A stretch of DNA of 45,034 bases from a virus. Each line of letters begins with the position of its first letter. The first letter of the stretch is position 1. The stretch is from IMG/VR virus record IMGVR_UViG_3300025087_000127, positions 1 through 45,034 of that record; one strand, given 5' to 3'. The position numbers were made by a program, and so were the translations under genes. The notes beneath the pieces are model-generated. The model searched no databases and had not been told where the DNA came from. It saw nothing but the letters and a program-made list of their open reading frames with translations. Shown piece after piece: positions 16,502-42,800 of the stretch.

Positions 16502-17118
16502 GCAAGCGGGCCGTGAAATCTTACGATACCAGCCTTTGTACCCCGCTCGGGGACGTCATTGTGGCGGAGCCATTTGACCGGATCGCGGTAATTGATGGCA
16601 TTATGATCGCCGCAGAAGAGGAAAAGTCCCATGAGGAAACAAAATCCGTGGTCCGCGCTGTCGGACCGGAAGTCACCAAGGTTAAGCCCGGTGACGCCAT
16701 TTTTCATAGCCGGTATGCCGGATCCCCAACCGCAATCAACGAAAAGCCGTTCATTGTGATGAGGGAGAGCCGCGCCGCCAACGACCTGTTTGGTATTTTC
16801 TTTGGCAACCGTCCGATCGACATCTCCCCAATGGACGACATTCTTTTCGTGGAGTGGGAGGACGGCACAAAGGAATTCCAGGGAACCAAGATCCAGAAGG
16901 TTGGAATCGACATGGAGCGGCATTACACCGGCATTATCCTTACGCATGGACCGGATGTGATGGACAAAAGGATCAAGTCTGGCCAGCGGATATTCTTCAA
17001 TCAGTTCTGCTCCCCGGAGCGCGTGGATTACCAGGGCAAGCGCTATGCCTTCATCCGGGAATATGACGCCCTTTTGATCGTTCCGAGCCGAACCGAAATG
17101 GCGGTGCTTGCGGCATGA
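16498..17118 (+). CDS. tandem double GroES-fold protein in the head operon
   Basis: The 206-residue product (GTG start, GGGAGGAG upstream) appears to be two GroES-like domains in a row. Domain 1 (about 15-100) has LGDVIVAEPFDRIAVIDGIM, then VVRAVGPEVTKVKPGDAIF and a terminal FIVMRES strand. Domain 2 (about 102-200) has ISPMDDILFVEW, TGIILTHGPDV, SGQRIFFNQF and YAFIREYDALLIV. A seven-subunit ring could form from fewer chains than usual. It is separate from the groES at 11545 and lies between terminase and portal, so it may be a dedicated co-chaperonin for capsid protein folding or a structural protein using the same fold. The call is by pattern of strands and Gly-Pro turns. Confidence 0.65.
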   Translation: MSKRAVKSYDTSLCTPLGDVIVAEPFDRIAVIDGIMIAAEEEKSHEETKSVVRAVGPEVTKVKPGDAIFHSRYAGSPTAINEKPFIVMRESRAANDLFGIFFGNRPIDISPMDDILFVEWEDGTKEFQGTKIQKVGIDMERHYTGIILTHGPDVMDKRIKSGQRIFFNQFCSPERVDYQGKRYAFIREYDALLIVPSRTEMAVLAA

Positions 17119-18277: not shown

Positions 18278-20392
18278 GTGCTTAAAACGAAGATAGACTT
18301 TTCCAACATTCAAGTCCTGGAAGCCGGCCTGGATTCTTCAAACCAGGACCACGACCTTCTTGATTTGACGGATAAGCAAGCCGCCCGGATCCGGCGCACA
18401 CTCAAAGAAGAGATTTCGGCCTGGGAAAGCGAAACAGCGCCGCTTATTCAGAAGCTTGAGCATTGGTACGACCTGTCAGAAGGGATAATTGACGACAGCG
18501 ACGAGCCCTATCCCGGGGCCTTCCACACCCACATCGACCTGATCGGCATTTACCTCAAAATTTATACCAGCATCGAGAAGCGGTCCATCCTTGGACCCGA
18601 AACGCTTTGGTATGCCGAAACCGAAGCGGATCCCGAGTTTGACAGCGTTCAGGATGCGCTCCCGGAGATTGACGAAATGATGAATTACAAGGCCCGGGCG
18701 GAGTGGAACGTCACCGAGGCCATTGGGGAAGCCTTCCCCTGCGTCAACCGGGACGGCCTTGCGGTCCTTAAAATCCCACATGTCGTGGACACCGAGGAAG
18801 TGGAGGATCGGGTTCTTCTCCGCAATCTTGAAGATCTGATACTTGAGTTTCCTCCCGGAGAATCAAGCCTGTCTAAAAAGGAGTGGGGCGTTCTGGCCCA
18901 ACTGGTTGAAGCAAACGGCAGCGATGAGACCCCAATCGAAGTCCCGGTAACTTCCGAGCGCACAAATTATTATGGGCCAAAAGCCTATGTCATTGAGCGA
19001 ATCAATTTCGTCACGTTTCCTTCCAATGCCCGGAGCCTAGACCGTGAATTTTGCCGCGGCCACGGAGACAGGTTCTATCTCCGCCGCGAGGAAGTCCGCC
19101 AGAAGATGGAGTCGGAGGAGTGGTACGAGGATGCCTGTAAAGAATTCCTCAAAAAGACGAAGAAGGCGGCCGGCTCCGACCCCACCAGTTACCGCACAAA
19201 TCAGGAAAGCATCACAGGGATCAACCGGGGGGACAAAGCAGACGAGTTCGAATTTTACGAGCTGACCTACTGGATGCGGCTTGAGCAGAAAGGCGTTGAG
19301 AAAAAATACGTGTTCATTTATACCAAGGAACACAATATTCTCATGTTCGCCAAGGTTTACTGGTATCGGACGCCCTCATACTACGCCAAGTTGAGGATAG
19401 AGCGCCGGGCTAACCAGATTGACGGCAAGTCTGTGGTTGGGCAGCTTGAATTTTTAAACGAAGAGCTGGATCTGCTCCACAACATGTGTGTCCAGGGTTG
19501 GCAGATCAGCAATATCCCCAGCTTCAAGATGGAGAAGGGCCTTGCCAAAGAGCTGGACCTCGAAGCCGACGAAAATCTCTGGCACCCTGGCGTGGTATTC
19601 CATCTCCCGGCCGGGACATTTGAAAAGTTCATTCAGTTCGATGTGCGGCCAACGGACAACGGCGCGATTACCCGCGGCGAGGCCCAGCTTTTAAATTACG
19701 CGGCGCTTATCATGGGGATAGACGCCTTCCTGGCCAGCGGCCGGCCATCACCCGAGGATCCCAACGCGCCGGGGAACAAGACCCAGCTTTTGGTCAATCA
19801 GGGCAACATTCGGATGGAGGATCCGCTGTCCGAACTACGGTATGGCGTTGAGGAAGTTGGGCAGATCTGCCTTTCTCACCTTTATCAGTTTGGGCCGGCG
19901 CAGATCCAGTACAAGGGCACGGAAGGCAAGAAAAAGATTACCAAATACCTTTCCAAGAAGTTTCTCCGGTCCGGCATCAGGCTCAAGATGCAGGGATTGA
20001 GTGTTGTCATGAACTCCGAAAACGAATTCAGGAAAGGAATAGAGAAGTGGGGGATAGCCATTAAAGAGCCGCTGGTGGCCCAAAAGGCCAAGTATAGGCT
20101 CGAGGCCATGCACCAGGCCTTCCGAAAGGGCCGTGTGCCTGATTACGCGCGATATATCCCTACCATGGAAGAGGCCGAAGCCTACGATGTCCAAGTAGCC
20201 AAACAGGCCATCCTCAACATGGCCATGGAACAGCAAGCCGCACAGGAAGAGGCCAGAATGGAGCAAATGAAGGCCCAAGAACAGCAAAAAGCCATGGCAC
20301 TGAAAGGCCTCTCGGATAAAGTCAGGGCCCAAAATCTCATAAAGCAAATTACCGAGCAAAACCTAGCAGCACAATTACAGGAGGCAGCTTGA
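18278..20392 (+). CDS. portal protein
   Basis: The 704-residue product matches the pattern of large phage portal proteins: an N-terminal helical WESETAPLIQKLEHWYDLSE, the PYPGAFHTHIDLIGIY segment, a long central region with the IDGKSVVGQLEFLNEELD helix, and a Gln-rich helical C-terminus. Twelve copies would form the DNA channel at one capsid vertex and dock the terminase and neck. The GTG at 18278 is the only reasonable start; the nearest GGGAGG lies 25 bases upstream, so the start is uncertain. The length fits podovirus-type portals. Confidence 0.8.
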   Translation: MLKTKIDFSNIQVLEAGLDSSNQDHDLLDLTDKQAARIRRTLKEEISAWESETAPLIQKLEHWYDLSEGIIDDSDEPYPGAFHTHIDLIGIYLKIYTSIEKRSILGPETLWYAETEADPEFDSVQDALPEIDEMMNYKARAEWNVTEAIGEAFPCVNRDGLAVLKIPHVVDTEEVEDRVLLRNLEDLILEFPPGESSLSKKEWGVLAQLVEANGSDETPIEVPVTSERTNYYGPKAYVIERINFVTFPSNARSLDREFCRGHGDRFYLRREEVRQKMESEEWYEDACKEFLKKTKKAAGSDPTSYRTNQESITGINRGDKADEFEFYELTYWMRLEQKGVEKKYVFIYTKEHNILMFAKVYWYRTPSYYAKLRIERRANQIDGKSVVGQLEFLNEELDLLHNMCVQGWQISNIPSFKMEKGLAKELDLEADENLWHPGVVFHLPAGTFEKFIQFDVRPTDNGAITRGEAQLLNYAALIMGIDAFLASGRPSPEDPNAPGNKTQLLVNQGNIRMEDPLSELRYGVEEVGQICLSHLYQFGPAQIQYKGTEGKKKITKYLSKKFLRSGIRLKMQGLSVVMNSENEFRKGIEKWGIAIKEPLVAQKAKYRLEAMHQAFRKGRVPDYARYIPTMEEAEAYDVQVAKQAILNMAMEQQAAQEEARMEQMKAQEQQKAMALKGLSDKVRAQNLIKQITEQNLAAQLQEAA

Positions 20393-23980: not shown

Positions 23981-24871
23981 ATGACCATAAATAGAGGTAA
24001 CTTCCAGGCCTCTGACTTCCCCCACTACAAGAAGATTTTCCATCTTGGAATGGGCCGGGAGGTCAAGGATCGGAGAGAAGTCTACTTCGACCAGGTAAGC
24101 TCGGATCGTAAATTCGAGACTTACTTCGAAGTAGGGGATTTTGGAACCGTGCCGGAGTTCGACCAGGAACTTCAGTATGAGGGAGTGCAGCAGGGGTACC
24201 AGAACACCATCACCAACAAACTCTACGCGAAGGGCATGCGTATTGAGTACGAGTTCAAGAGGGTTGACCAGCAGAGGATCGCGAACAGCCTTCCCAAAAT
24301 GTTGGCAATGGCCATGAGGCGCCGTCTGGCCGGCGATTCAGCAACGTGGTTTAACGATGCGACCACGACCTACCTAACGAGGGACGGCCTGTCTCTCGTC
24401 AACGCCGCGCACACCAGCAACAACGGCGGCGCGAACCAAAGCAACCGCATCACGACCGCGTTCTCGGCCGTGGCCCTTGCGGCTGCCCGCATCACCATGC
24501 GGAAGTTCCTGAGCAACACCGACCAAATCCTGGACATCATGCCGGACACGCTGTACGGCGGGATTGACTTACAGGATTCCTTCGAAGAAGTGATCAAGTC
24601 GAAGGGGCAGGTGAACACAGCGAACAACACCATCAACATCATGCAGGGCGCGTTCCGGGCAGTGACGGACCGGCGCTTTGAGGACACCAACAACTGGGGA
24701 ATTGCGGATTCAAAACTCCAGAAGGAATTCAACATCTGGCAAACCGTGGATCCTGTCAGCTTCCAAGAGGCGGAAGTTTTTGACGGAATGACGGCGAAAT
24801 ATTCGTGCCGCAGTTTTCACGGGTACGGAAGCACCGGATGGGAATGGCTCCTCTTCGCAGAGGTTGCTTAA
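23981..24871 (+). CDS. major capsid protein (Mu gpT-like)
   Basis: The 296-residue product resembles the Mu gpT family of HK97-fold capsid proteins: YFDQVSSDRKFETYFEVGDF near the start, EFKRVDQQRIANSLPKMLA in the long-helix region, DGLSLVNAAH, and a C-terminal WGIADSKLQKEFNIW segment. A strong AGAAGGAGGG site and a terminator just after the gene fit high expression. It should build the icosahedral shell with the scaffold-like and portal proteins. Confidence 0.8.
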   Translation: MTINRGNFQASDFPHYKKIFHLGMGREVKDRREVYFDQVSSDRKFETYFEVGDFGTVPEFDQELQYEGVQQGYQNTITNKLYAKGMRIEYEFKRVDQQRIANSLPKMLAMAMRRRLAGDSATWFNDATTTYLTRDGLSLVNAAHTSNNGGANQSNRITTAFSAVALAAARITMRKFLSNTDQILDIMPDTLYGGIDLQDSFEEVIKSKGQVNTANNTINIMQGAFRAVTDRRFEDTNNWGIADSKLQKEFNIWQTVDPVSFQEAEVFDGMTAKYSCRSFHGYGSTGWEWLLFAEVA

Positions 24872-25505: not shown

Positions 25506-26450
25506 ATGTTCAGAAAAATTGTCGGGTTTGCTCTTCTTGCCGTTGTGATGGCTTCTCCTGTCTTTGCGGGAGAGCCTGGGGACCGCCTCTCGCCGGACGC
25601 TTGGGGCGTTGGTGGGCCTGGATCAAGCAGAGTTTCTTCGCAACCTGTCGTCAGGGTTGACTACGACGGAGATGTTTTGCCGGCTGAAAACGCGCGGCAA
25701 TCTGTCGGTTCTCCAACGGAAACATGGAAAAGCGGCCACTTCGGAAGCATTGAGGTTACCAGCGGCATTGCCAATCACACGGAATTCTTTTTCAATCTTT
25801 CCTCGGGTAACACACTGGGCATGCGCGCTGCCGGCTTCGTTGTTTCGACGAACACCTTGAGGAATTCAGCAACGACGTATATTGAACACGAAATCATCCA
25901 GTCCTCCGGTGCCCCTCGAAACGTCACCATCAGCGTCTCCAGTTCAGTCATTGGAGCTATAGGCGCGGCCTCCACCATGACTTTAATTGGATGCGCGACC
26001 TTTTATGGATATGATGCGGCCGGATACTTTGTCTCCGAGCTTGTCTCCTTCTCCACCACATCCGGCGTCAGCATAGTTCTGTCCACCGCTCCTGGAGCGG
26101 GCCTTTGCCAGGATCAGACTTGCCAAAAATCCGGTATGGGCGTAGGAAATGTAGCCTTTGCAAAAATCTCCAGCTTCACGGCCCAGCTTGCGGAGGCGTT
26201 GCCTGTCGCTGGCAGCCTTCCCGAATTGATCACTCTGAGGATCGGATGGGGCAACAAGATAGGGCTTTCAAACCAGGTCTCCAATTCGTCCGATGTCTAT
26301 AAAGTCACGGACTCAAATGGGGACGTATCATCGCCTCAAAATAATCCCGGATTCTCCGTCAACACCACTTTTTCAACGGTCGTGTTCGATCAGACTCCGG
26401 CCCTGAGCAATAAGAAGGTGTGGTATAAGACGAGACGGTCCTGGCGGTAA
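25506..26450 (+). CDS. secreted virion-region protein 1
   Basis: The 314-residue product starts with a clear signal peptide (MFRKIVGFALLAVVMASPVFA then GEPGD). The mature part is Ser/Thr/Gly-rich with beta-strand periodicity, plus WKSGHFGSIEVTSG, a phrase typical of phage tail-fibre or receptor-binding repeats. AGGAGG precedes the ATG at 25506; an in-frame ATG at 25380 lies inside the previous gene. It is the first of seven consecutive genes with signal peptides. Confidence 0.75.
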   Translation: MFRKIVGFALLAVVMASPVFAGEPGDRLSPDAWGVGGPGSSRVSSQPVVRVDYDGDVLPAENARQSVGSPTETWKSGHFGSIEVTSGIANHTEFFFNLSSGNTLGMRAAGFVVSTNTLRNSATTYIEHEIIQSSGAPRNVTISVSSSVIGAIGAASTMTLIGCATFYGYDAAGYFVSELVSFSTTSGVSIVLSTAPGAGLCQDQTCQKSGMGVGNVAFAKISSFTAQLAEALPVAGSLPELITLRIGWGNKIGLSNQVSNSSDVYKVTDSNGDVSSPQNNPGFSVNTTFSTVVFDQTPALSNKKVWYKTRRSWR

Positions 26451-26481: not shown

Positions 26482-26991
26482 ATGAAAAGAATTATTTTTG
26501 CGGCCATGTTTATTGCGGCCGGATGGGCCGGCGCCGCCTGGGCGCAGCCCATCGGCGGGCCGGAGAGTCAACTCACGGTTGTCCCAATCTATGAGGAGTA
26601 TGGAAACACATCGAGGCTCATCAATGTGCCAATCAGCACAACCAATGTCGTTGTGATTTCCTCGGAAGCGCCGAACGCCTATGGGCATCAAACGTCCACA
26701 TCAGAGGCTCTCGGGATATCCGTTTGGCGCTTTCGTGAGATTGTGAACACAAGCACGTGCGCGGCCCTGGCATTATATCCAGACCGGAGCTACACAACAT
26801 ACACTTCCAGCTTCGGGATTGTGTTGAGCAGTGATTCCACCAATCTTGGCGCCGGCGATTCCTATGTTGTCCCAAGTCAAACCGCCATTTATGGGATATG
26901 GTCGCCATCGTCTGGATCCTCAACGTGCGGCGCTGCTGGGGCTGGTGCCGGGGGATATGAAACTTATTACCTCCAAAGCGGGCGGAGGTAA
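26482..26991 (+). CDS. secreted virion-region protein 2
   Basis: The 169-residue product has the signal peptide MKRIIFAAMFIAAGWAGAAWA followed by QPIGG. The mature part is Ser/Thr/Tyr-rich and ends GYETYYLQSGRR. AGAGGAGG precedes the ATG. Its composition and GRR ending resemble the exported protein at 250. A small beta-sandwich virion or surface protein is a reasonable guess. Confidence 0.7.
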   Translation: MKRIIFAAMFIAAGWAGAAWAQPIGGPESQLTVVPIYEEYGNTSRLINVPISTTNVVVISSEAPNAYGHQTSTSEALGISVWRFREIVNTSTCAALALYPDRSYTTYTSSFGIVLSSDSTNLGAGDSYVVPSQTAIYGIWSPSSGSSTCGAAGAGAGGYETYYLQSGRR

Positions 26992-26996: not shown

Positions 26997-27572
26997 ATGA
27001 AAAAATTCATGTTCTTTTTTTTGGCGTTGCTGCTTTACTGTGGGACCGTTGAAGCGGCCGGGATCAAGAGAAAGGTCACGGGGAAGGCCGGCGCAGCTGG
27101 ATCGGCCGGCGCTTCGGGGACGTCCGGGACAATCTCCGGATCGACACTCTCATATGTCTTGGATATCCCAACGGTTTATCTCTCGACCAGTGGGCCTTGC
27201 TCAACTCCTCGCGCGTGCATCAGCGCGGGCGTTGACACCATGACCATCGTGGCCTATTGGTTCGACGCGGTTCATCCTTCGACGAATTCTTTTTCTGGAT
27301 TCAAACTGGTGATTACCACGGGACCGGCAAATTTCGGGAGTCTCGCAAACGCTTATCCGGTTATTCAGGATAGGTTCAACAACATGACCGTCTCGATGGC
27401 CACAGCCACAGCTATCGGGCGCGGGGATGGGTTCAGCGGTATCATTTCAACGTCAGTGATTCTTAACGCTGGGGAGACTCTTACAGTTTGGACTTCGACG
27501 ACCAACGCAAGCGGCCCTCCGACGAGAGGAGGAAAATTCCATGTGGATGCGTGGACCAAGGCCCGTTATTAA
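26997..27572 (+). CDS. secreted protein with short collagen-like tract
   Basis: The 191-residue product has a signal peptide (MKKFMFFFLALLLYCGTVEA) and then a Gly-X-Y tract (GKAGAAGSAGASGTSGT), as found in trimeric phage fibres, followed by a beta-rich domain. CGGAGGTAAC precedes the ATG. It overlaps the next gene by 32 bases. A trimeric fibre-like role is inferred from the tract. Confidence 0.7.
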   Translation: MKKFMFFFLALLLYCGTVEAAGIKRKVTGKAGAAGSAGASGTSGTISGSTLSYVLDIPTVYLSTSGPCSTPRACISAGVDTMTIVAYWFDAVHPSTNSFSGFKLVITTGPANFGSLANAYPVIQDRFNNMTVSMATATAIGRGDGFSGIISTSVILNAGETLTVWTSTTNASGPPTRGGKFHVDAWTKARY

Positions 27573-28389
27573 AATACACAGCGGCATACTTTTCTTCTTA
27601 ATATTCATGGGGCAATCGCTGCATGCGATCAACCCAACGGACCCGCTTGACCCAAATTGCATCCTTGCCGTTGATATGAAAGATGGCCGCGGCGGCGTGG
27701 CCAGGGATTTAAGCAAGTCTGGACTCGACATGACGCTGAACGGGGCGGCCGCGTGGCTTGAGGAAACCCAAATTTTCGCGGATTGGAGAGAAACTCTTTT
27801 CAGCGTAAGGCCAGCCTCACTTACTTATGCGCCACTCTATGGTCACGCTGTTTATTTGACGGCGACGGCTGGCATTGACTTAACAACGAACGTCACAACC
27901 AAGTTCGATTTCAGCGGGAACAAGCCATTCATGTGGGCCATTATAATCTCTGATTACTCCATAGGCTTTGATGCGGGGCAAGTTTCTATTTTCAACTGGT
28001 CGCAAGGGGCCAACAGCTGTGGACTTTCCCTTGAAATTACTGGCGGGGCAAACCAGACTTTGAATTTAAATGCGGCCGGGATTGGAACAATGTCATCTTG
28101 GAATATCGAGTATGGGCGCGACACCAAACCTCACATGATCGGATTCTGGCGAGACGAGGCTGGCCATACCGATGCTTATTACGATGGAAAACTGGTTAGG
28201 TCTAATTCTTCGATCGCAGATATGAACACTTGTGGGGGTGGGTCAGCTATGAATATCGGCAAGGCCAAGACGGGCGCGGCAGGGGAAATGGGTGGAATTG
28301 TAGGGCCATTTTGGTGGTGGGATAAAACGGTCGAGAGAAATAACGCTCCTGGGTTCTTTAAGGCGTGGCTTGAAAATCAATCTTTTTAG
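27541..28389 (+). CDS. secreted LamG/concanavalin-like protein
   Basis: The 282-residue product has a basic N-terminus, a hydrophobic core (ILFFLIFMGQSLHA) and then a domain with the LamG-type pattern: ILAVDMKDGRGGVARDLS, KPFMWAIIISDY, HMIGFWRDEAGHTDAYYDGK and an aromatic FWWWDK end. Such folds bind carbohydrates, which would fit host-surface recognition. AGAGGAGG precedes the ATG. Confidence 0.7.
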   Translation: MWMRGPRPVIKIHSGILFFLIFMGQSLHAINPTDPLDPNCILAVDMKDGRGGVARDLSKSGLDMTLNGAAAWLEETQIFADWRETLFSVRPASLTYAPLYGHAVYLTATAGIDLTTNVTTKFDFSGNKPFMWAIIISDYSIGFDAGQVSIFNWSQGANSCGLSLEITGGANQTLNLNAAGIGTMSSWNIEYGRDTKPHMIGFWRDEAGHTDAYYDGKLVRSNSSIADMNTCGGGSAMNIGKAKTGAAGEMGGIVGPFWWWDKTVERNNAPGFFKAWLENQSF

Positions 28390-28804
28390 CTTCCTTTTCG
28401 TTCTCGTAGCCTCCGGGATTCTGTGGGCCCAGGATCCTAAGCCTAAGACTTATTTTCTCCGCGTTGCTGTTAACCCGGTGCAGACCAAGCAAACCGTTGC
28501 GACAGCGTTTAAGACGAAGGGAAACCAGGTTTCGGACAATCCATTTTATCTCACGCACACGCTGACCCAACCCGACACGAATTACGTCCTGGTGATAATG
28601 ACCCCGAAGGACGGGGCCGAGGACACTCAAGTGAAGGGCGGCGGGTTTGCTCTCCCTGGAGATGTGTACCAGATTTGGGAATTTGAGCCAAACAGCATAC
28701 CGCAGTGCATCGTGGACAACAGCAAAATTTTCCCCGTAGATCACGATTGGTCTGTCGAGGTTAGCTGCCCGGTAGCTAAAGAAAGGAAGGGGTTAGGAGG
28801 GTAA
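28370..28804 (+). CDS. secreted virion-region protein 5
   Basis: The 144-residue product starts at TTG, overlapping the previous gene by 20 bases, and has a signal peptide (MKINLFSFLFVLVASGILWA then QDPKP). The mature part has two Cys and no recognised motif. The GTTAGGAGG at its end serves the next gene. Confidence 0.65.
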   Translation: MKINLFSFLFVLVASGILWAQDPKPKTYFLRVAVNPVQTKQTVATAFKTKGNQVSDNPFYLTHTLTQPDTNYVLVIMTPKDGAEDTQVKGGGFALPGDVYQIWEFEPNSIPQCIVDNSKIFPVDHDWSVEVSCPVAKERKGLGG

Positions 28805-28805: not shown

Positions 28806-29561
28806 ATGAAGCGCATAATATCACTTTTCCTGTTTTTCTGCATTATAGGGATTCATTCTGCTGAAGCGCTCACGCTTTCCGATATCCGGACATCCATCCG
28901 CCGTGAAGTGCATGACAATCCCGCCGATACGGCCCGCCGCCGATATTCCGATACCGTCCTCAATGACCTGATCAATGAAGGACAGCGCGAAATCACAATC
29001 GCTGGGGACCTTGCGGACAAAACCACCGTCTATACTCTTTCCCCACGGACCACTTATTATATCCTTCCGACCGATGTTATCGGGGTCAAGCAAATTTATT
29101 TCACGGACAAATTTTTCCAGCTTCTTGAGCTTGAGGAAAAACCCCAAAAATCCCTCTATGATAAAAACCCACAATGGGAAAGAAACTCAGGATCCCCAAA
29201 CTCATACTGGATCAGCCAAGCCACTCACCCGCGAAACCAGCAATCGGCGCCGCTCCGGATCTCCTACATTCCTATCCCGACCAACCTGTCCACCGGGACA
29301 GTCACCATCTGGTATTCCTACATAATGTCGGACCTATCGGCGGACACTGATGTTCCGTTTGAAAACCGCAGAAACCTTTACCCCTACCACGCCGCGCTCA
29401 TTTACTATACCGTGGTCCGCCTGAAAGTGACGGAAGGTAAAATATCAGAGGCGTCCACCTACCAGCAGCTCTATACCTCGACTTTAAATTCCATGAAAGG
29501 AAAACTCGGGGAAATGCCAAACTACACCCCTGGAATAGCAATCCCTGGAGTTAATCGGTAG
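28806..29561 (+). CDS. head-tail adaptor-like protein with a signal peptide
   Basis: The 251-residue product has the phage neck adaptor pattern after residue 22: TLSDIRTSIRREVHDNP, RRRYSDTVLNDLINEGQREI, YILPTDVIGVKQIYF, and a final helix around AALIYYTVVRLKVTEGKISE. Adaptors of this type bind the portal and seat the tail. Unexpectedly it is preceded by a strong Sec signal (MKRIISLFLFFCIIGIHSAEA). AGGAGGG precedes the ATG. How a neck protein with a cleavable export signal meets a cytoplasmic procapsid is unclear. Confidence 0.75.
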   Translation: MKRIISLFLFFCIIGIHSAEALTLSDIRTSIRREVHDNPADTARRRYSDTVLNDLINEGQREITIAGDLADKTTVYTLSPRTTYYILPTDVIGVKQIYFTDKFFQLLELEEKPQKSLYDKNPQWERNSGSPNSYWISQATHPRNQQSAPLRISYIPIPTNLSTGTVTIWYSYIMSDLSADTDVPFENRRNLYPYHAALIYYTVVRLKVTEGKISEASTYQQLYTSTLNSMKGKLGEMPNYTPGIAIPGVNR

Positions 29562-29565
29562 GCAA

Positions 29566-32028
29566 ATGAATGGCCGCTTTTGTTTCCTCATTAGCGTTTT
29601 CGCCTTCGCCGCGCTGTCGCTGGCGCAGGGGGCAACGCTTCCTCTCATCCCTAAACCCCAAGGGTTAAATACCGACACTGACCCGCTCCTTATAACTGAC
29701 GGCAAATCACCGGACTCTGAAAATGTGGTCACGGACGAATTGGGCGGGATCAAGCCGCGCGAAGGGTTTGTCCGGTTCAGCACTCAAGCAATCGACCAGG
29801 AATGGATTTTTGCGCACAGCAACGGGACCCGGTATTTCATTGTCCGGACCAGCACGCAGCTCCTTGCCTCAACCGGCGAGAGCAATTTTACGGTCTTTAT
29901 TGCCACGGTGGACAGGAACGTCCAGACAGCCGCGGCCCAGCTGGGGGATAGGTGGTTTTTCGGCAACACCACGGACATTCTCAAGTATTGGGACGGGAGC
30001 GCGGTTGTTACGACGTCCCAATCCATCCGGCCGGCCATGCTGGCGTCTCACAAGGCCCGCCTATGGGCGGCCGGGATCGGTAGCGACGAAAGAACGATCT
30101 ATGGCTCCGAATATCTTCAGGGCCACAATTTTGCCCTAGCGCTGGATCCGGTTGAGACCGATCCTGTCCGGATCCCGGTCCAAGGCGCATTGGATGAGGT
30201 TATAACCGCGCTCTACGCATCCTTCAACGACATGCTCATGTGGTTTAAGCCGGCGGCATTTGGTGGAATTCATGGGAGCCGAAGAAGCAATTTTGGATCC
30301 CGGAGTTACAGCGAGACGGTCGGGAGCGCATATCCAACCAGCATTCAGGACTGTGATGGTGAATTGCGGTTCCTTGGGTCCCGGCGCCGGGTCTTTGCCT
30401 TTGGCGGAAACGCGGCCGGCGAGCCAGTTTTGAGGAAGATCAGCGAAGATATCGACACCCTGATGGACACGGTGTTGCAGGGAGATTTGACGCAAAGGAC
30501 TTGGACTCAAACTTCACAGGGAGAGTGGGCCCTTGGGTCAGGCGGAAACCCCAACATGGGGTTAAGCACGAACACGGTCGCTGGCGATGTGGCTTTTGTG
30601 GCACAGGCGACCATCGCTGTGCCCGCCGATGGATTCGACGATTCAAGTTATTTGTCCAGCCCAGCGTGGAATGTCGTAAACGGTTCTTTTGGTGTCGTGA
30701 ATGGGGATCTTCAGCTTTTAAGTTTGCCGGCCGGCCTTGCAGATATAAATTTGCCCAGCAACTTCAGCACCGGCACATGGACAATTTCCGGCACAAATCT
30801 TGGAACCGGATTCTATGACTTCATGAATTCGCAAGCAGATCTTTCCGGAGAGGGATATCAGTTTTACTATGATGCGGGCGGCACACTTGGATTGCGCTAT
30901 CGCAGACCGATTGGGTTTGGGCCCACCATCGCGGCATCCGTTGCCTTCGCTGTCGTTGCGCCGCTTAAAAAAATCAGCGTTACAAGGACGGAAAAAGGAA
31001 TTTTTATATCTTCGTATTCGGACAACAATGTAACTGACTTGCCTTTGACCGGCATTCCCGGAGTCGCCATTGACACTGTGACGTCCTATTCAAATTATTT
31101 CTCACTTCAACCGGATGATGGGAGCGGCTTCAGCTTGGATTATGTTCAGGTCAGCAGCCCAGCCTACATTTTTTACTCTTCTTTCACGTCTCAATCGTTT
31201 AACACCGGAACGGATGCTTCCGCCTGGGGAAACTTTACAGCGAATTCCACCGAAAACGGCGGGACGATCACATATGGAATATTCTCCGATTCGGACACGA
31301 CATTAAACATTTCGGATCAAACGACATTCATTGCCAGCCAAACCATTGTCCCAGACACCACCCCAACACTAAGGATCTCCTCTTATGTAACGGTCGCGGC
31401 GTATTTTAACCGGCGGTTTTCCACGAATACGGTCAGCATGAACGATTTTGTCGTGCGCTGGAAGCAGGGATCCACCCTTGACGTTCCATCGGCCTGGATA
31501 AATCAAAGGTTCTGGCTTGGCGTGGCAGTCGGGTCCGCCGCGAACAATTCCGTCCTCGTCTTTGATCGTAACAGGGAATGGAACCTTTATACCGGGATCA
31601 ACATGACCGCAGCGGCGATCTATGATTCCAGCCTCTTCTTTGGGAATGCCGCCGGGTTATGGGAGGCAGAGATTGGGACAAGCGACAATGGCGCGGCCAT
31701 CACCGCCTACTATAAGACCAAGGCTTTCGCGCCGGCCGGCCTGAACACTAAGACGACTTTCCGCGACCTTTTCATGACCACGACTGAAAGCGCCGCGACT
31801 TTGGAAACGGATTATTTTATCAACGGCATCTCCGCCGCCTATAGCCTGGCAGATTATGCAATGGATGGGGTGTCCGGATATCAGGATTTCAGGATCCCGT
31901 TTGCAACGACGGATATTGAGCAGGGCAAAACAATCGCTTTTAGGTGGACGATAACAAGCGACCTGGCATGGCAGATCCTTTGGGCCAACCTCTATCACGA
32001 ACCGGACACGATCATGACGGACAATTAA
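29566..32028 (+). CDS. large tail/nozzle-like protein with a signal peptide
   Basis: The 820-residue product has a signal peptide (MNGRFCFLISVFAFAALSLA) and then LPLIPKPQGLNTDTDPLLI and SPDSENVVTDELGGIKPREG, the start typical of podovirus tail tube/nozzle proteins with a propeller-like body. WIFAHSNGTRYFIV, WFFGNTTDILKYWDG and FAFGGNAAGEPVLRKISEDI follow the same style. A large inserted beta-rich region is at about 350-620. It follows the adaptor-like gene directly, as expected for a neck-tail pair. Confidence 0.7.
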   Translation: MNGRFCFLISVFAFAALSLAQGATLPLIPKPQGLNTDTDPLLITDGKSPDSENVVTDELGGIKPREGFVRFSTQAIDQEWIFAHSNGTRYFIVRTSTQLLASTGESNFTVFIATVDRNVQTAAAQLGDRWFFGNTTDILKYWDGSAVVTTSQSIRPAMLASHKARLWAAGIGSDERTIYGSEYLQGHNFALALDPVETDPVRIPVQGALDEVITALYASFNDMLMWFKPAAFGGIHGSRRSNFGSRSYSETVGSAYPTSIQDCDGELRFLGSRRRVFAFGGNAAGEPVLRKISEDIDTLMDTVLQGDLTQRTWTQTSQGEWALGSGGNPNMGLSTNTVAGDVAFVAQATIAVPADGFDDSSYLSSPAWNVVNGSFGVVNGDLQLLSLPAGLADINLPSNFSTGTWTISGTNLGTGFYDFMNSQADLSGEGYQFYYDAGGTLGLRYRRPIGFGPTIAASVAFAVVAPLKKISVTRTEKGIFISSYSDNNVTDLPLTGIPGVAIDTVTSYSNYFSLQPDDGSGFSLDYVQVSSPAYIFYSSFTSQSFNTGTDASAWGNFTANSTENGGTITYGIFSDSDTTLNISDQTTFIASQTIVPDTTPTLRISSYVTVAAYFNRRFSTNTVSMNDFVVRWKQGSTLDVPSAWINQRFWLGVAVGSAANNSVLVFDRNREWNLYTGINMTAAAIYDSSLFFGNAAGLWEAEIGTSDNGAAITAYYKTKAFAPAGLNTKTTFRDLFMTTTESAATLETDYFINGISAAYSLADYAMDGVSGYQDFRIPFATTDIEQGKTIAFRWTITSDLAWQILWANLYHEPDTIMTDN

Positions 32029-32039: not shown

Positions 32040-33074
32040 ATGATTCCAGGCGACAAAAACGCAGAACTCTACAAAACAGGACGCGCGTCCTATGTGGACC
32101 CGGTCACGGGAAAGATGGTTTATCTTGATCGGGTTGGGCCGGAAGGGTCAAATCTCACATCAATGGATCTTGGAAACCCTGCCGCGATTGATAATAGCGC
32201 GGCCCCTCAATCCATAGATTCTCTTGTCAATTCGCTGATCAAGAGCATGTCTCCGTCCAATCGCGGTACAGGCAATCAGCCGTTTTTGTCCAGCCTGGTT
32301 GATATGGCTCCAAAGATCGCGGATTATTACACGCCGCCGGAACAAACGTCGGACAAATATTTCCAGGATCTTCTGGCGTCCATCACCGGACCGTCCAGCG
32401 TTGAGGATGCGCTTAAACTCGTGGAATCGCAGGGATTGGGCGCGGAGCTCTCCGAGATCGACCGCGGGACCCGGGCAAACGTGGCATCCGCCAAAATGGA
32501 CTTTTTTGACCGAGGCATTGCCGGCCCGGGTCGTGGATCTGACATCGAGGCCAACGCCATTGCCCAGCTCATGGCCGGCGGTGAGCGGACAAAATCTGCA
32601 ACCCGGTCGGACGTCCTGAAAACGCAGCTGGGGAGACAGTCGGAAAAAGAAAAGGCGAAATCCGCCGCTTTGGGATTGCAATACCAGACCGGCGCGGCCC
32701 GGGACACTCAGGAACGTGGTATTGCCGCCAGCAGCGCCCAGACACAGGCCCAGCTCATGTCCCAGCTTTTAGGACAGGAGTATGGCGGATTCATCACGCA
32801 GCGGGAAGGCATGCTCTCACGGGAATCGGCGTCCAGCCAGAATTATCTGAACCAGATCCTCAATTATGCCCTCAAGACCGGGGAACTGAGCCAGCAAGAC
32901 GCTCAATTCTATTCGAAGCTGATTTCGGATGAGAACACGGCGGCGGCGGACCGCACGGCATCCTATGACCGCGCGCTGTTGGGGACGAGAGGAAAAGACA
33001 AGGATATCCTGGATCAGATCCAGCAAGTGACTTCCATCGGGAAAGATGCCATGAGTATTTATAGGGGCTATTAA
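32040..33074 (+). CDS. internal virion/tail protein, helical, Gln/Ala-rich
   Basis: The 344-residue product lacks a signal peptide and has a mostly helical, Ala/Gln/Ser-rich body (GIAASSAQTQAQLMSQLLG, then DAQFYSKLISDENTAAADR), typical of internal or ejected podovirus proteins. The ATG at 32040 follows AAGGGGG; a frame open from 31944 lies inside the tail gene and is rejected. It precedes another small gene and the giant one. Confidence 0.65.
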   Translation: MIPGDKNAELYKTGRASYVDPVTGKMVYLDRVGPEGSNLTSMDLGNPAAIDNSAAPQSIDSLVNSLIKSMSPSNRGTGNQPFLSSLVDMAPKIADYYTPPEQTSDKYFQDLLASITGPSSVEDALKLVESQGLGAELSEIDRGTRANVASAKMDFFDRGIAGPGRGSDIEANAIAQLMAGGERTKSATRSDVLKTQLGRQSEKEKAKSAALGLQYQTGAARDTQERGIAASSAQTQAQLMSQLLGQEYGGFITQREGMLSRESASSQNYLNQILNYALKTGELSQQDAQFYSKLISDENTAAADRTASYDRALLGTRGKDKDILDQIQQVTSIGKDAMSIYRGY

Positions 33075-33087
33075 AGGAGGCTGAACG

Positions 33088-33825
33088 ATGGCAACACCAA
33101 ATTGGCTTAAAACGCGGGCAGATCTTCAAGCGGACCAGGACCGGGCCCTGATGGAGAGGGCGCTGCTCCAAGGCGGCCACATGCAGCCCGATATCCCAAA
33201 AGGCGGGCTTGTCATGCGCGGACCCAACGGTCTTTATGTTGTGGATCCTAATCAGGCGGCCGGAACGGATGAAGCCGAGCGGCCACTGAAGTTTAAGGCC
33301 AAAGATGATGATTCTGTTGAAGGCGGCCCACTCTTCACGATGAAGAACGGGGTGATAACCCCGCTTCCCAAAATGCCGGGACTTAAACGGAAAGAGCAAA
33401 TTATAAATTACAGCGAGCCGTCGGAAAAAGAAAACCCGCAGCTCACCATGGCCAAGGAAACGTACAAGGAATATGTGCGAAAAATTGCCGCAGGGGAAGC
33501 TACGACCGACACCTTCTTAAAACAAGTGGAGGCGATTGCCCCTCTGCTGAGTTTGGTCAAGGTGAGAAATCGCGGAGAGGAAAAGACAAGTGGTTGGTGG
33601 AAAAAGACCCCAACGGGAGAATTTGATCCTGGACCTACCATCTATAAGCCGGCGGAGAACGTGACGGCGGACGAATGGGCCGTAACGGCACAGGAAGAAA
33701 TCCTGGATGCCATGGCTCTGGATAAAAAGTATTCTGGACTGTCCGAAGCTGAAAAAAGAAAGCTGATCGGGCCCAAGGCCATTCAAGACGCGATCTTCCA
33801 GCTCCGGGGTGCTGGGAAAAAGTAA
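33088..33825 (+). CDS. virion-region protein of unknown function
   Basis: The 245-residue product starts MATPNWLKTRADLQADQD. It contains LVMRGPNGLYVVDPNQAAG and several charged helices, with no signal peptide and no recognised domain. AAAGGAGG precedes the ATG. Its TAA overlaps the ATG of the giant gene (TAATG), so the two are probably co-translated, suggesting a partner or internal virion protein. Confidence 0.65.
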   Translation: MATPNWLKTRADLQADQDRALMERALLQGGHMQPDIPKGGLVMRGPNGLYVVDPNQAAGTDEAERPLKFKAKDDDSVEGGPLFTMKNGVITPLPKMPGLKRKEQIINYSEPSEKENPQLTMAKETYKEYVRKIAAGEATTDTFLKQVEAIAPLLSLVKVRNRGEEKTSGWWKKTPTGEFDPGPTIYKPAENVTADEWAVTAQEEILDAMALDKKYSGLSEAEKRKLIGPKAIQDAIFQLRGAGKK

Positions 33826-36800
33826 TGGCTTTAGACCTCTCCATCATACAGCTTGAGGATTCTCCTCTCGATGATGAAAAAAAGAGGGTTCTTCCAGACA
33901 GCGAACAACCCAACTTATTAAAGGTTGGTAAGCCGGCCCAGGCCGGAAAAATAGACCTGTCGGGGATCACCCTTGAAGAGCCCGGTGCGGAAAAAGAGGA
34001 AAAAGCCCCTTTTTCCGCACCGAAGGTTAAGCCTCTTCTCCAGGATCTTGCCCGCCGCGCCGCCAGAGCCACGGAGGCCGTCCCGGGATCCACCCCACTC
34101 AAATACCTCGAAGAGATGTATGGCCCCAAAGCCACGCCGCTCAAGCCCGTAACGGAAGGAATGAAAACGGCCAAGGATTTCACGGTTCAAGCCGCCGGGG
34201 TCTTTAAACTTCGCCAACCCTTCATGTACGAGCAATCCATAAAACTGCCGGGGAATGATAAAAGGACGCTCACTCCAGAGCAGGCTGCCTGGGAAAGAGA
34301 CGTCAACGCCATGGTGGAAATCGAAGCCCAAGACCTGGCAAAGAACCTTGCAGGGAAACGACACCCATCCCTGGAAGCCGCTCAAAGCGGCCAAAAACAG
34401 CTTCAGCTTGTCATGGACCTTGGCTTTATAGCGGCCGCGGCAGCGGGGACTGGCGCGGTGCTTACTCCAGTCAAAGAACTGCCCAAGATCGCCAAGTTCA
34501 TCACTCAAATGCCGCGGCTGGCCCGGCTGGTGGAGGCCGGAGCCATCGGGATCCCCTATGCAACCTCTCAAGAATTTAGGAAGGTGACCCAAGAAGATCA
34601 AACGCTCAAAGAAGCTTTTTCCACCTATCCTGAAGATGTGGCAAAAAATGTTGCCGGATTTATGGCATTTTCAGCGGCCGGGCAGCTTGCCGGTGCGGCG
34701 TTTGACAAGGTTGCCTATGACCGGGTCGTCCAAACCATGCCTCTCAAAGTTATCACACTCACGGCGGAGAAGGTGAAAGACTTTCTTGGCAGCCTGGAAG
34801 CAAATCCAGGGATGCGGGAATTCATGAACAAGGCTGTGCCCGGATTCCAGGAATTGGCCAAAAAAACATTTAAGACGGGCGAAGAGACGAAAGTTTTGAT
34901 CCCCGAGATTATGGTAACCAAGATGGCAGCAAAGCCGTGGTACCAGGCTTTCCGCAAGGCCCTCGTCTCGGATGCAGAGCCGGTCATGCCGCGCCTGTTT
35001 GCGCAAGGGAAAGACGTTGCCAGAACGTTGGTTGATGTTGGAGGCGTCCCGCCACCGCCCGCTGGACAGCTTCCCGGCCCGAAAGGGCCTCTCACAATGC
35101 CTCCTGGTGGGCCCGGATCCACCGGCGCGCCGGCCTCACCCATAGATTTGGCCAAAATCCAGCTTGAGCCCGCCGCTACGGCCCCATCCGCCGGGGGTAC
35201 GATTGCGCCATTTGGATCCGGGGAGCAGGGGGACCCCAAGGACCTGATCCAATTCAATGAAGAGGCCAATCCGATCAAAGAAGCCAGAAAGAAGGGGCTG
35301 GACGACCTGGGCTTGATTGCGGTCCGGTACACGGATGAAAGGACAGGCCTTTTAAAGAGCGATTTCTTGGGTGAGGCGCGCACGAAGCTCCCATCCTATG
35401 AGCATCCAGACAATGAGGAGAAGCCGCTGGATGAGATGCCCATGCTGATTGCCGACCTGGACAATTTCAGCAAAATAAACAACACCTACGGCCATAAAAT
35501 GGGGAATATGGTCCTCAAAACCGTTGGGGATCTTGCCAAGAAGTTTGCGGACGAAAACGGCCTGATCGCGGTCCGGGACGGCGGGGAAGAATTCAAATTC
35601 ATCATTTTAAACAAACAGGATCCGTCGGATCTGGCCGTAAAGCTGGATAAGGTGAGGGACGACCTTAAGAGGGCCAAATTTATTGACGAAACGACCGGGG
35701 AAGTGCTTTTCACAGGGGTAAACTTCAGCGCGGGGTTTGGCGTCAATTTTGAGAGGGCGGACAAAAGGCTTTACGACGCAAAAAAAGCAGGGAAAGGGCG
35801 AACCACCCCCATTGACATTCCCGAATTGGAGAAGTACAATAACCTTGGAGGTACCAAACATGAGCTTAAAAGAAAAGAGGCCGCGGCCACCGATCTTGAG
35901 CGACAAGGAACTCCAAAAGAAGTACCCGAAGGTTTACCCAAACCCGGTTCGAGTGGAGCTGGACGGGCAGACGATCGGGAGATACGACCCTCCGGGAAAC
36001 AACCACCCGCCCAAGAAGTAAAGCCTCCGACCCCAAAAACGCCCGCCGATGTAACGGCGTCCCACACGCCGCTTCTCCAGGACATTGTCCCCCAGGAAAA
36101 GAAACTTGCCGGCCAATCTGACATCGTCCAATTCGTCATAAAAAATGGCGGGATCGACCCCGGGAAGGATTCCGGCGATATTTTAGAGCTTGGAGACAAG
36201 CGCCTCATAAAGAAAACCGGGAAATCCCTGGACCACATGAGGGAAGCCGCCGCTGAAGCGGGCTATATCCCGCGCGATACCTCCAGTCAGGAACTCATTG
36301 ATCTTATCGACACCCAATTAAAGACGGGCAAGCGTCAATTCGCCGTTTTGGGCGGCGCGGAGAGCATTGAGACGCGGCCGGTATCGAACTTGAGCGCTCG
36401 AGAACTCATTCAAGCCGAAGAAGATTTTAATGCCCTCAAAGCCAAGCGGCCTTTGACCGAAACAGAGGCAGAGATTTATTTCGAAGTCCAGGAAATACGC
36501 GAGCGGACCGGCGCGGCGATAAAGATTGACCTGTCAAAACTCCCGCTTGAAGAGCCGCCGGCGCCCGCCGCCGGAGAAATCCCACCGGACATTTTAAAGC
36601 GTCTTGAAGCCGCGGCGCTCACTTTCCTGCGAAGGCATGGCTCAATGCCTTATGACAAGATTCTCGAAGGTGCAAAAGCCGGATACCTGAAAGAGGTTCA
36701 AGCCGGCGGACCGGCCGCGGGGCTTGAAATGATTGAGGAGGCAGAGAGGGTCCTTGACAAAGGGAAAAACGGTGATATACTCGAAGGGGAGGATCCCAAT

Positions 36801-39800
36801 GCCAGAACTGAAGCTGCACCAATTGAGCGAGGAGAGGAAGGGTCTCGGCCCGTGGGGGCAAGAGGCGGAGATCCATTGGAGGGCGAACCTCCCGCTGCTT
36901 TACCAGGCTTTAAAGAAGGCGGGGAAACTCCAGGAAGCGCTCCAAAACGCGGACAAGCGGACCGCGGCGGCGTTCCACAAGGAGAAGGAAAAGCTGGAAA
37001 GCCGGGGGATGGATCCGGCACAGGCGGCAACGATCGCCCTGGAACTGGTGAGGGAGGAGTGGGTTTACCTTCAAGCGGAGGAGGACCAGCTTCTACCAGA
37101 CAGCGAGAGCTTAATCGAAAATCTGCTTTAGAGAAACTTTCCAATTACCGCATCACCGCCGCTGACCGAATCGGCGAAGGCACACCCGAAGAAAAATACC
37201 AAAACAACATAGCCGCGATCAAGCTTCTTAAACAGCTTGAACTGGAAGGCCGGCCGCCGCTGCCCGAGGAAATGCCCGTTCTTGCCCGATACGTCGGATG
37301 GGGCGGCATGCCTCAAGTCTTTGACGATTACAACCCCAAATTTAAAAAGAAATTCACAGAACTCGAAGCCCTCCTGACGCCGGAAGAGTACGAAGCCGCC
37401 CGCGCGTCCACTCCAAACGCCCACTATACGTCCCCCGAAGTGATCAACTCCATGTACGAAGCCATAAAGCGTATGGGGTTCACCGATGGCCGCATCCTTG
37501 AGCCGGCGGCCGGAGTCGGGAACTTTATTGGCATGATGCCCGAAAGCATCATCCTAGATTCTAGGATAACGATGGTGGAGCTGGACAGCATTTCCGGACG
37601 GATCGCCAAAGCCCTTTATTCCGCAGAGGACGTCCGGATCCAGGGTTTTGAGACCGTGAAGATCCCGGACAATTATTTTGACCTGGCCATTTCAAACGTT
37701 CCATTCGGGAATTTCCCTGTCCATGACCCGGCCTATGCGAAGCTGGGGTTGGCCCGGAGCATCCACAATTACTTTTTCGCCAAATCCATCGACAAGGTGC
37801 GCCCCGGCGGGCTGCTGGCATTCATCACGAGCCGATACACCATGGACGCGGAGGATCCGCGCATCCGAAAATATTTGAGTGAGCGAGCCGACCTGGTGGG
37901 AGCCATCCGCCTCCCCAACACCGCGTTCAAGAAGAATGCCGGGACCGAAGTGGTGACGGACATCATCTTTTTGCAAAAGCGCGAATCCTGGCAAACCCCG
38001 AAGGACGCCTCCTGGGTTGAAACCACGGAAACGAAAGTGGGCCGGGAATCCGTAGAAATCAATTCTTATTTTGCAAAGAACCCGGCGATGATGCTTGGAA
38101 AGCCGGCCATGTCCGGGACCATGTATGGTGACAAGGAATTCACATTGGAGCCCACCGGGGACCTTCCACAACAACTGACCCAGGCGATTGCGAAGCTGGA
38201 CGCCAACATATATAAGGCCGCGGCGGCCGCCAGGAGCGCTGTGCGCGAAGTTTCCGTACCGGCCCCGGAATTCGTGAAGGAAGGCGGCCTCTTTGTGGAT
38301 GGAGGAAAAGTATATAAGAAGATCGGGGACACCGGAGAGGAATTCGGAGGAATATCTGTCCCGCACATTCAATCCTTCCTCAAAGTCCGGGACCAGCTTC
38401 GAACAACCATGGGCAACCAGCTCATGGGAAATGAAGCACTGATCCCGGCCGACCAAAAAGCGCTGAACAAAGCCTACGACAATTTTGTCGCAAATTACGG
38501 GCCGATCAACGCCAAAAAAAATGAAGTCTTTGCTCCTGACCCAGATTATCCGATGATGCTGGCCATTGAAAAAAAGAACAAGGATACCGGGAATTATGAG
38601 AAAGCGGACATTTTTTCAAAGCGCGTTCTCGCGCCGGATCTTAAAGTGGAGTCCGTAGAAACCAGCCTCGAATCTCTCTTCGTCTCCTTAAACGAGACCG
38701 GCCGGCTTAACTTTGCTCGCATGGAAGCGCTCACCGGAAAAAGCCGCGCGGATCTGATCGCGGAACTGAAGGGATCGATCTACAAAAACCCGGAAACCTC
38801 TCAATACGAAACCGTGGATCAATATTTGAGCGGGAACGTGCGCCGGAAGCTGGAACTGGCGGAGAGCGCCGCCAAGAACGACCCGGATTATAAAGAGAAT
38901 GTCCACGCCCTGAAAGAAGTCCAGCCTAAAGACTTGATGCCCGCGCAGATCAAGGCCCGGCTCGGTTCACCCTGGATCCCGGCCGAAGTGGTAGATCAAT
39001 TTGCAGCGGAACTCTTCAATTTGCCGCTTGAGAGCAGCATCACCACCACCTATATTCCCCAAGCCGCTACCTGGGCCGTGGATGAAGGCCGCAATCGCTG
39101 GAGTTTGTCCGACAACGTGGGCAACACCAAAACTTGGGGGACAGACCGCTATCCCGCCGTTAATCTCATCTCGGACACCTTAAACCACAAGCTGCCAACC
39201 GTGTACGACCGGGACGCGGGGGAGGCTGTTGTAAACAAGGCGGAAACGGAAGCGGCGCGGGACAAACAGGAGAAGATCAAAGAGAAGTTCCAGGCCTGGG
39301 TGATGGCAGATCCAAAACGTGCCACAGACCTTGCCGCCATCTATAACCGAGACTTAAACAATATCGTCCTCCGCACCTATGACGGGAAGCATCTCACCCT
39401 TCCGGGAGCCAACCGCCTCATATTTGAAAAGCTCCGAAAACACCAGAAAAATGGGATATTTCGTTCCTTGCAGGGAAAAAATGTTCTCCTGGCGCATGCC
39501 GTGGGCGCTGGCAAGACCTGGGAAATGGCCGGGATCGCCATGGAAAGCAAGCGGATCGGGCTTTTCAATAAGTCGGTCATCACGGTCCCCAAGAACCGCC
39601 TAAAAGCGACCGCGGCTGAATTTCTCCAGATGTACCCGTCCGCGAATCTGCTTGTTGCTGACAGCCAAGACTTGTCCGAAGCCAACCGCAAGGTATTTAA
39701 ATCCCGGGTCGCCACCGGGGATTGGGACGCCATCATCATCAGCCATGACAGTTTTTCCCGGATCCGCATGGGCGACGCAACCATCCAGAAATTTCTGGAC

Positions 39801-42800
39801 GACAAGATGGCGGAATTCACACATGCCATTGAGGCAGCGCGCGGAAGCGGCGGAAAAAATATGTCGGTCAAGGAACTGGAAAAAGCCAAGAAGCGCATAG
39901 AGGCAAAGCTCAAGGCAATGATGAAACAGGAAAAGAAAGATGAAGGCCTCACATTTGAGGAACTGGGGATTGATCAGATCATCGTTGACGAGGCACAAAA
40001 TTATAAGAGCCTTTTCCTGGTAACCCAAATGACGCGGGTGAAGGGGATCCCCACAAGCGCCGCGGACCGCGCCTTCGATATGTTCATGAAAACCGAGTAC
40101 CTTAACCGCGTGAACAACGGGAAGGGCATCGTTTTCGCTACCGGAACGCCCGTCACCAACACAATCGCTGAAATTTACATCATGCAGAGGTATCTCCAGA
40201 ACGAAATGCTCAAGTCCTACGGGATCGACAATTTTGATGCCTGGGCCCACACGTTCGGTGAAACCGTGACCGGCTTCGAACTGGACACCACCGGGAAAGG
40301 ATTCCGGCCCGTGTCCCGCTTCTCCAAATTCTCAAATATGCCGGAACTCTTGAACATCTTTTTCCAGGTGGCGGACGTACAAACAGCGAAGATGCTTAAC
40401 CTCCCGGTCCCAAAACTCAAAGGCGGAGCGCCCCAGCCGGTCATTTCGAAGCCTTCCCCGGAACTTTTGGAGTATGTCCAGAAGCTCATGAAGCGCGCGG
40501 AGGATGTGCGCGCCGGCCGGGTGGACAAAACGGACGACAACATGCTCAAAATTTCAACGGACGGCCGGAAGGCCGCTATGGACATGCGCCTGGTGGATCC
40601 TACCGCCAAAGATTATCCCGGAAGCAAGTCAAATCTGCTCGTGGATAAGCTTGTGGACATTTTCCGCGCAAATGCCAAAACCCGGAGCATCCAGCTCGTA
40701 TTCAGCGATTTGGGGACGCCTGGGACCAGCGGCCACTTCTCTGTTTATGACGATATCCGAAAGAAGCTCGTTGCCAAAGGCATCCCCAAGGAACAGATCG
40801 CCTTCATTCATGACGCCAAAACGGCCGACGCACGGAAGCTCCTGGAAGAGAAGGTGAACTCCGGGCAGATCCGCATCCTGGTTGGAAGCACACCCAAGAT
40901 GGGCCTTGGAATGAACGTGCAAGAACGGATCGTGGCGCTTCACAACCTGGACGTCCCCTGGCGGCCGGATTGGCTGGAACAGCGGAATGGCCGCGCACTC
41001 CGGCAGGGCAACCTATATCACGATGAAGTCCAGATTTATAATTACGGGACAGAAAAAAGCTTTGACGCCTTCATGTGGCAGACTGTGGAGAGAAAAGCAA
41101 AATTCATTTCTCAAGTAATGTCCGGGGAGATAAGCGCCCGCGAAGTGGAGGACGTTGACGACGTCGTTCTGAACTTCGCCCAAATGAAAGCCATCACGAC
41201 CGGGGATCCAACCATTCTGGAAAAGGTGGAACTGGACGCCAAGATCGCCAAGATGCAATCCTTGCAGACGACCTTCCTCAACAACCAGCACATGGCTCAC
41301 ATGGAGATAGCGGCTCTCCCGGACAAACTGAAAGGCCTGGAAACAACGATCACGGAGATTGAGGCCGACCTGGCAACCATTTCCAAGTACGATCCAAAGA
41401 ATTTCAAGATCACGCTTGGCAGCATGGAAATTGACGAGCGCGTCCGTGCCGGCGAGAAGATCATGCTCCTGGCAAGGCAGCACCGCGTTGAGGGCCGCGT
41501 GGGCCAGGACTTCCATATCGGCGAATTTAAGGGCCTCCCCCTCTTCATTTATCCCGCCGGCGTCACCGGCAACCCTGACCGGATCCACGTTCAAGGAAAA
41601 GCCTTCAAGTATGAGGCGTTCATCGGTGATTCCCCGGACGGCCTGATCAAGAGCCTGGATTATCAGTCCGGGCTGGAAACGCTCAAGAAGAAGCTCGAGT
41701 CATACCACGAAGCGAAGTCCACCCTGGAAAAGAAGCTCAAGGATCTGGAACAGGAAGTCAAAAAGCCTTTCCCGGATGCTGACAAACTGAAGGACATGGC
41801 CGCGCGACAGCAAGAACTGGAAAAGAAGCTGGACATGAGCAAAGGCGAATCAACCGTTGGCACAGCGGAGGAGGAGCGGGCCGGCGCGTCCGATCCGGAG
41901 GACCAGCCTCCCGCGCGCGATTCTGCTTCAGTGAAGCAGAATGGAGGAGGCGGCGGCGGAGCAGCCATGAGACCCCAGGGCGGCGCGGCCGCGCGGGCAC
42001 CCAGCACAAAACCAGGGCCCGGGGGACCGCCAGAAGGAGAAGCGGCTGGTGATGGCGAGGTTGAACAGCCAAAGAACCCGGTATGGCCAGGATCGCCAAA
42101 CGACTTTATTCCTCATATCGAAATGCCGGAACTGGTGCGCTTCGTGCGGCTGCTAACTGGGCATATTCCAACCGTAAAGAAGCTGCGGCGAAATCTCGGG
42201 TATTTTAAGGGGCAAACAGGCGGACCGGAATCCAGCATATCTCTGGACATTGGCATTTTCAAGGATCCGGTTGAGGCAACGAAAATACTGGCGCACGAAA
42301 TTGGACATTTGGGTGATTGGCTTTCAAACTTTCACCTTGACCGCGGGAACATACTCGGCCGGCTCAAGACCCTCATTGGGTACCGCAAAACCCTGATTGA
42401 CCCGCTTCCCTCCGCCAACGACGCCCTGGACCCTGTGGACCGGCGGAAGCTGAAGAACGCGGCGATCAAGGAGGCTTTGAGCCACACGGATTATACCCTG
42501 GCGAACTATATCAAGAACCCGGAGATTCGGCGGGCCATGTGGCCTCTTATCCGGGAAACCTACAATCAGATGGTGGCCGACGAAATCAAGAAAAAAGGCC
42601 TCATCACCAAAGAGCAAGTGATGAACGAGCTTAAAGCGGTCACCCGATACTGGCATCCTTTCGACCCCGACAAGGACGCCAAGTACACCGCATACCGCTT
42701 TTCCGCGAAGGAACTCTACGCGGAGGCCCTTTCCATGCTATTTAATGAGCCTCTCCGCCTAAAGGAGATGGCTCCCACTTTCTATAAAGCCTTTTGGGAC

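Follow-up and report, generated by a model that had tools for sequence, protein, structure and literature searches.

Signal peptides on a head–tail adaptor, a nozzle-like protein and adjacent tail-region genes of a tailed phage

The locus and its genes

The window – the whole stretch of DNA analysed here, 45,034 nucleotides in length – is a 45 kb phage record from IMG/VR (IMGVR_UViG_3300025087_000127), whose last ~126 bases duplicate its first ~126, so that the end of the record probably closes on its start. The structural genes are all encoded on the plus strand (Table 1), running from the large terminase through a portal candidate, which returned no family match, to the capsid, the tail region and a giant polyvalent protein. 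The latter, read from 33825–45032 and on into 1–253, exceeds 3700 aa and contains, by eye, methylase, helicase and GGDEF-like stretches. Near the end of its gene there are three further signal- or lipoprotein-like starts (250–696, 1912–2499 and 2711–3196), which possibly mark a lysis region; they are known from the list of open reading frames only, and the crude gene caller drops some genes.

Table 1. Features of the window, with predicted signal-peptide cuts (arrows) where present
Feature	Position	Strand	Signal peptide	Basis and remarks
Large terminase	14427–16169	+	signal-like, ACA↓SLT	tblastn alignment with terminases, starting at residue 33 in the 589-aa frame
Portal candidate	18278–20392	+	none	size and position
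Scaffold-like gene	21729	+	none	position
Major capsid protein	23981–24871	+	none	PHROG_371 (5.9e-9)
First gene of the run	25506–26450	+	VFA↓GEP	fibre-like by eye
169-aa protein	26482–26991	+	AWA↓QPI
191-aa protein	26997–27572	+	VEA↓AGI	cut followed by a Gly/Ala/Ser-rich stretch
282-aa protein	27541–28389	+	LHA↓INP	lectin-like by eye; no PDB match
144-aa protein	28370–28804	+	LWA↓QDP	TTG start
Head–tail adaptor, SU10 type	28806–29561	+	AEA↓LTL	PF24175; PHROG_399; Shine–Dalgarno and start-codon scan
Adaptor signal peptide (~residues 1–21)	28806–28868	+	AEA↓LTL	sequence and detector
Nozzle-like protein, 820 aa	29566–32028	+	SLA↓QGA (~residues 1–20)	hmmsearch and hhalign to nozzle family
Two genes after the block	32040–33825	+	none	cargo/ejection by position only
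Giant polyvalent protein	33825–45032	+	none	open at record end, continues over end repeat

The terminase has a probable TTG start with a Shine–Dalgarno sequence, and its signal-like N-terminus would be cut just ahead of the conserved domain; the same N-terminus (window 14400–16169) is possibly lipoprotein-like. The window also carries a complete GroEL gene (PF00118; 11545–13521 region), preceded by a reading frame at 11545 that looks GroES-like by eye; a GroES-type gene (PF00166) stands apart from these at 16498–17118. Host assignment from GroEL was abandoned; its identities – 51–55% to every genome tried, and 53.9–54.9% among the plasmid matches listed – single out none. A DUF5131 gene (5275–6039) resembles one at L247:3857–4639; the phage in question is of Bacteroidota type and has signals on genes of its virion region.

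The adaptor and the nozzle-like protein

The adaptor matches the Pfam family PF24175 (SU10_adaptor) with E = 1e-21 and 78.7 bits, against a curated cut-off of 27, residues 23–233 aligning with profile positions 2–182; it also matches PHROG_399 (structural protein) at 4.5e-10. Its N-terminus, MKRIISLFLFFCIIGIHSAEA↓LTLSDIR..., begins at an ATG with AGGAGG upstream; the first 80 codons contain one other in-frame start, the GTG of codon 35, which already belongs to the family domain, so that the start-codon scan found no restart between the signal peptide and the PF24175 domain. The preliminary description had proposed a neck protein whose recognisable pattern follows directly behind a signal peptide, as opposed to an unrelated secreted protein or a product with a misplaced start, and the adaptor bears this out on each count: the match is nearly profile-wide, it opens at residue 23, and it is the first ATG that has the Shine–Dalgarno sequence. 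Like the SU10 adaptor, the protein matches almost the whole profile and occupies the same place in the gene order, before the nozzle; unlike it, it has a signal peptide ahead of the domain.

The nozzle-like protein starts with MNGRFCFLISVFAFAALSLA↓QGATLP..., from an ATG without a good Shine–Dalgarno sequence. Its residues 68–300 match a nozzle-family profile – seeded by a protein of MW202692 annotated as 'phage stabilization protein' – at 24 bits in hmmsearch and at 4e-5 over 212 columns in hhalign; as controls, 11 other window proteins gave P values of at least 0.11, and the best of 60 shuffles reached 24.4, versus 47.5. The protein has no curated Pfam or PHROG match, a Pfam search with other nozzles returned no named family, and the name 'nozzle' is not firm because PHROGs labels part of the MW202692 seed amidase. 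Single-sequence AlphaFold2 models of the adaptor and the nozzle-like protein (mean pLDDT 35.7 and 30.9, respectively) are unusable, and the nozzle assignment therefore rests on sequence profiles. With the podovirus nozzles of the P22 gp10 type the protein shares the profile and its place after the adaptor, and it differs from them in its length, its signal peptide and the missing Pfam and PHROG matches. The earlier claim of a tail-type protein with an export signal thus holds at the level of the profile and the peptide, and finds no support from curated families. As for its start, the poor Shine–Dalgarno sequence counts against it, and in its favour the next two starts in frame (codons 54 and 59) both lack a good ribosome site; by the start-codon scan, a mis-called start is unlikely for the nozzle-like protein and was rejected for the adaptor.

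A block of seven signal-bearing genes

Both genes lie where the preliminary description had placed them (28806–32028), but that extent proved too narrow: they close a run of seven consecutive genes, beginning at 25506 and ending at 32028, each of which starts with a signal peptide according to our detector. The first of these genes found no family match in a search that used a longer frame, from 25380. In all seven peptides the n-region is charged +1 or +2, the core is strongly hydrophobic and the cut is of AXA type; the cuts were assigned by eye (for the gene at 26482, the one chosen by the script lies three residues nearer the N-terminus). Glutamine occupies the +1 position in 3/7 genes at the assigned cuts, or 4/7 by the script's looser motif, which falls short of the Bacteroidetes Q-rule (~71% of substrates expected). 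The mature parts are without a strong membrane segment, the highest 19-residue mean being 1.82. The block has edges on both sides, the genes at 18278, 21729, 23209, 23981 and 24932 before it and those at 32040, 33088 and 33825 after it being negative with the detector.

The detector is rule-based and the gene caller crude; with these tools, 8/45 window genes were positive, compared with 26 of the 706 genes called in 82 other loci (3.7%), and the longest run of signal genes was seven in the window, versus three at most in the comparison loci. That run of three (L012) looks conjugation-like rather than virion-related. In a control on E. coli, 23/84 genes were flagged – presumably most of the exported ones, but also proteins anchored in the membrane by their N-terminus and two cytoplasmic ones whose hydrophobic cores are weak – and the detector cannot tell signal peptides and such anchors apart.

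Two further ideas about the block were rejected. Two of the seven proteins have a net early-mature charge of +4 and +2, respectively (the highest value in the E. coli exported set is +1), but as a sign of failed export this positive charge does not distinguish the block from E. coli significantly (p = 0.41). The copying of one signal cassette among the genes was not convincing either, the best pair being 52% identical (p = 0.064 by codon shuffle; a plain shuffle is a poor control).

Taken together, we consider it very probable that genuine signal-peptide sequences sit here on genuine neck and tail proteins.

Signal peptides in other phages

Scans of viral_contigs with the adaptor, terminase, capsid and portal yielded no close relatives of this phage, and none emerged when 50,697 phage records were searched by tblastn with the adaptor, nozzle and portal. 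Sequence searches of the PDB found no match from a phage. With the giant protein's methylase stretch as query, 80 viral loci were retrieved, and PF24175 was found in 19/50 records from these loci, at 22 places, and in one of 395 Bacteroidota genomes. None of the 23 adaptor-family places elsewhere has a signal peptide (those on the minus strand were judged by eye), and the adaptors at L142:15440 (24.6 bits) and L148:9990 (24.1 bits), both below the cut-off, are likewise without one. The giant protein of Pelagibacter phage Baldr resembles that of the window at 22%, and no signal peptide was found among the 15 Baldr genes checked. Among the loci compared, the window alone showed signals on its adaptor and nozzle.

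Signal peptides on virion-region genes do occur in two further groups of phages that have giant proteins of this kind. The first, of Bacteroidota type, comprises the L142 record and its relatives L247, L248 and L249, with signals on genes around the capsid and on a spike-type gene (PHROG_2234), and its homologues stay signal-like while their letters differ. Glutamine stands behind the cleavage motif in 11 of 13 hand-picked non-capsid signal genes of this group, the spike included, and in 14/173 non-signal genes. An average of 71% is the figure given in PMC5837995 for glutamine after the cut in Bacteroidetes signal peptidase I substrates, so the 11/13 indicates that phage proteins from the virion region that bear such signals can be genuine substrates for export. 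The capsids of this group (L142:4333–5745, L247:9914–11329, L248:9980–11419 and L249:7516–8928) have bodies that are 50–75% alike and N-termini that are unlike, yet signal-like in being hydrophobic; these N-termini may be something else, because a hydrophobic N-terminus is present in 4/4 and the Q-rule is followed in 0/4.

In the second group (the L004 record and its relatives), fibre-type genes carry signals, with glutamine in 11/15. A capsid signal peptide of L004 was considered as a second conserved case and dropped, since the N-terminal arm of this capsid (~20 residues) proved hypervariable when 14 close relatives (L146–L159) were compared, ranging from signal-like to absent. The neck genes – adaptor and nozzle – of both groups are without a signal peptide. 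Signal peptides on appendage-type genes thus recur across phage groups. Q-rule signal peptides on fibre- or spike-type genes, with signal character kept between relatives, were noted in L142, L106, L107, L148 and L154.

Export, late docking and alternative explanations

By the accepted view, tailed viruses assemble inside the cell, which makes an export tag on the parts that join head to tail a puzzle. One reading, which we favour at a probability of roughly 35–40% on the basis of sequence, is that this podovirus-like phage makes its adaptor, its nozzle and five fibre- or decoration-type proteins as preproteins for Sec and signal peptidase I. These tail parts would be translocated and trimmed, would fold beyond the inner membrane, and might dock on DNA-filled heads once that membrane fails at lysis; head and tail would then be built in separate compartments. 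Its fullest form – in which heads fill in the cytoplasm while a complete tail machine is Sec-exported, matured outside and snapped on at lysis – we hold to be unlikely.

In favour of export followed by docking, the edges of the block fit a division between head and tail, which suggests a late joining of exported tail parts to heads, and the adaptor homology begins right behind the peptide. The nozzle profile match, the make-up and number of the seven peptides, the missing restarts, the mature parts free of strong membrane segments and the glutamine counts of the Bacteroidota-type group count on the same side. Going by its title, a 1967 paper by Israel and colleagues reports that P22 could be assembled in vitro out of heads and components of the baseplate. 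Against late docking, P22 heads without neck proteins lose their DNA. The terminase must act on DNA and ATP in the cytoplasm, and because this cytoplasmic worker also looks signal-bearing, a simple export reading is weakened. The lack of close relatives, the signal-free adaptors and nozzles elsewhere, the early-mature charge in two of the seven proteins and the detector's blindness to anchors weigh on the same side.

The main rival is leaky or dual routing with cytoplasmic assembly, in which the signals work but much of each protein would reach its fold in the cytoplasm beforehand and join virions in that compartment; what is exported would act otherwise, such as in a superinfection block or in envelope stress. 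We regard it as possible, if doubtful. It would account for the signal-like terminase and for the unfavourable early-mature charge of some proteins; the phage GroEL and GroES-type genes would perhaps aid cytoplasmic folding, and the fact that only part of the virion proteins bear signals in each of the three groups fits a meeting of parts in the cytoplasm. However, neither the adaptor nor the nozzle has an in-frame second start from which a signal-free form could be made, and a single block with edges is left unexplained.

It is improbable, in our judgement, that the N-termini are uncleaved hydrophobic anchors, which would tether components of neck and tail to the membrane or insert into that of the host on infection. 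The detector could not have told such anchors apart, and the capsids of the Bacteroidota-type group, uniformly hydrophobic at the N-terminus and none with glutamine after the cut, count in its favour; but each of the seven peptides has an AXA-type cut, A↓Q in three of them, and the usual orientation of an anchor would still put the body of the protein outside the cytoplasm.

Quite improbable, too, are drifting N-terminal arms that come to resemble signal peptides and are tolerated or removed by a phage protease. The hypervariable capsid arm of the L004 relatives, signal-like in only some of them, speaks for this reading, and signal predictions on capsids of Porphyromonas phages were put down to a prohead protease (PMC10367356). 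Seven such arms in a row would nonetheless be very unlikely against the 3.7% background, and homologues in the other groups retain their signal character despite sequence divergence.

That the starts or families are wrong – the hydrophobic stretches being untranslated, or the proteins unrelated secreted ones – is very improbable: it could appeal to the nozzle's poor Shine–Dalgarno sequence and lack of Pfam or PHROG support, but is opposed by the start-codon scan, the PF24175 match and the nozzle profile match, and for the adaptor is already largely refuted. Sec import into a membrane-bounded replication compartment was rejected, as the window's portal and capsid have no signals and another group shows the reverse arrangement, with signals on the capsid and none on the neck.

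Comparison with known systems and implications

Filamentous phages also have signal peptides on virion proteins, which use the host Sec pathway and assemble in the membrane; the phage of the window differs in being a tailed phage with terminase, portal and capsid. For the Nixviridae phages of Porphyromonas gingivalis, PMC10367356 describes predicted signal peptides, including one on the major capsid protein, some of them obeying the Q-rule. There the signals fall on the capsid, spanins and proteins of unknown function, whereas in the window they fall on the neck, the nozzle and the whole tail block. Our search found no open-licence paper whose title or abstract describes signal peptides on an adaptor or nozzle.

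By standard teaching, tailed phages take shape entirely in the cytoplasm. The present tail module, marked throughout by export signals and sharply bounded by the head genes before it and by signal-free genes behind it, makes a clear, testable exception, and a signal peptide is no ground for excluding a gene as a virion component.
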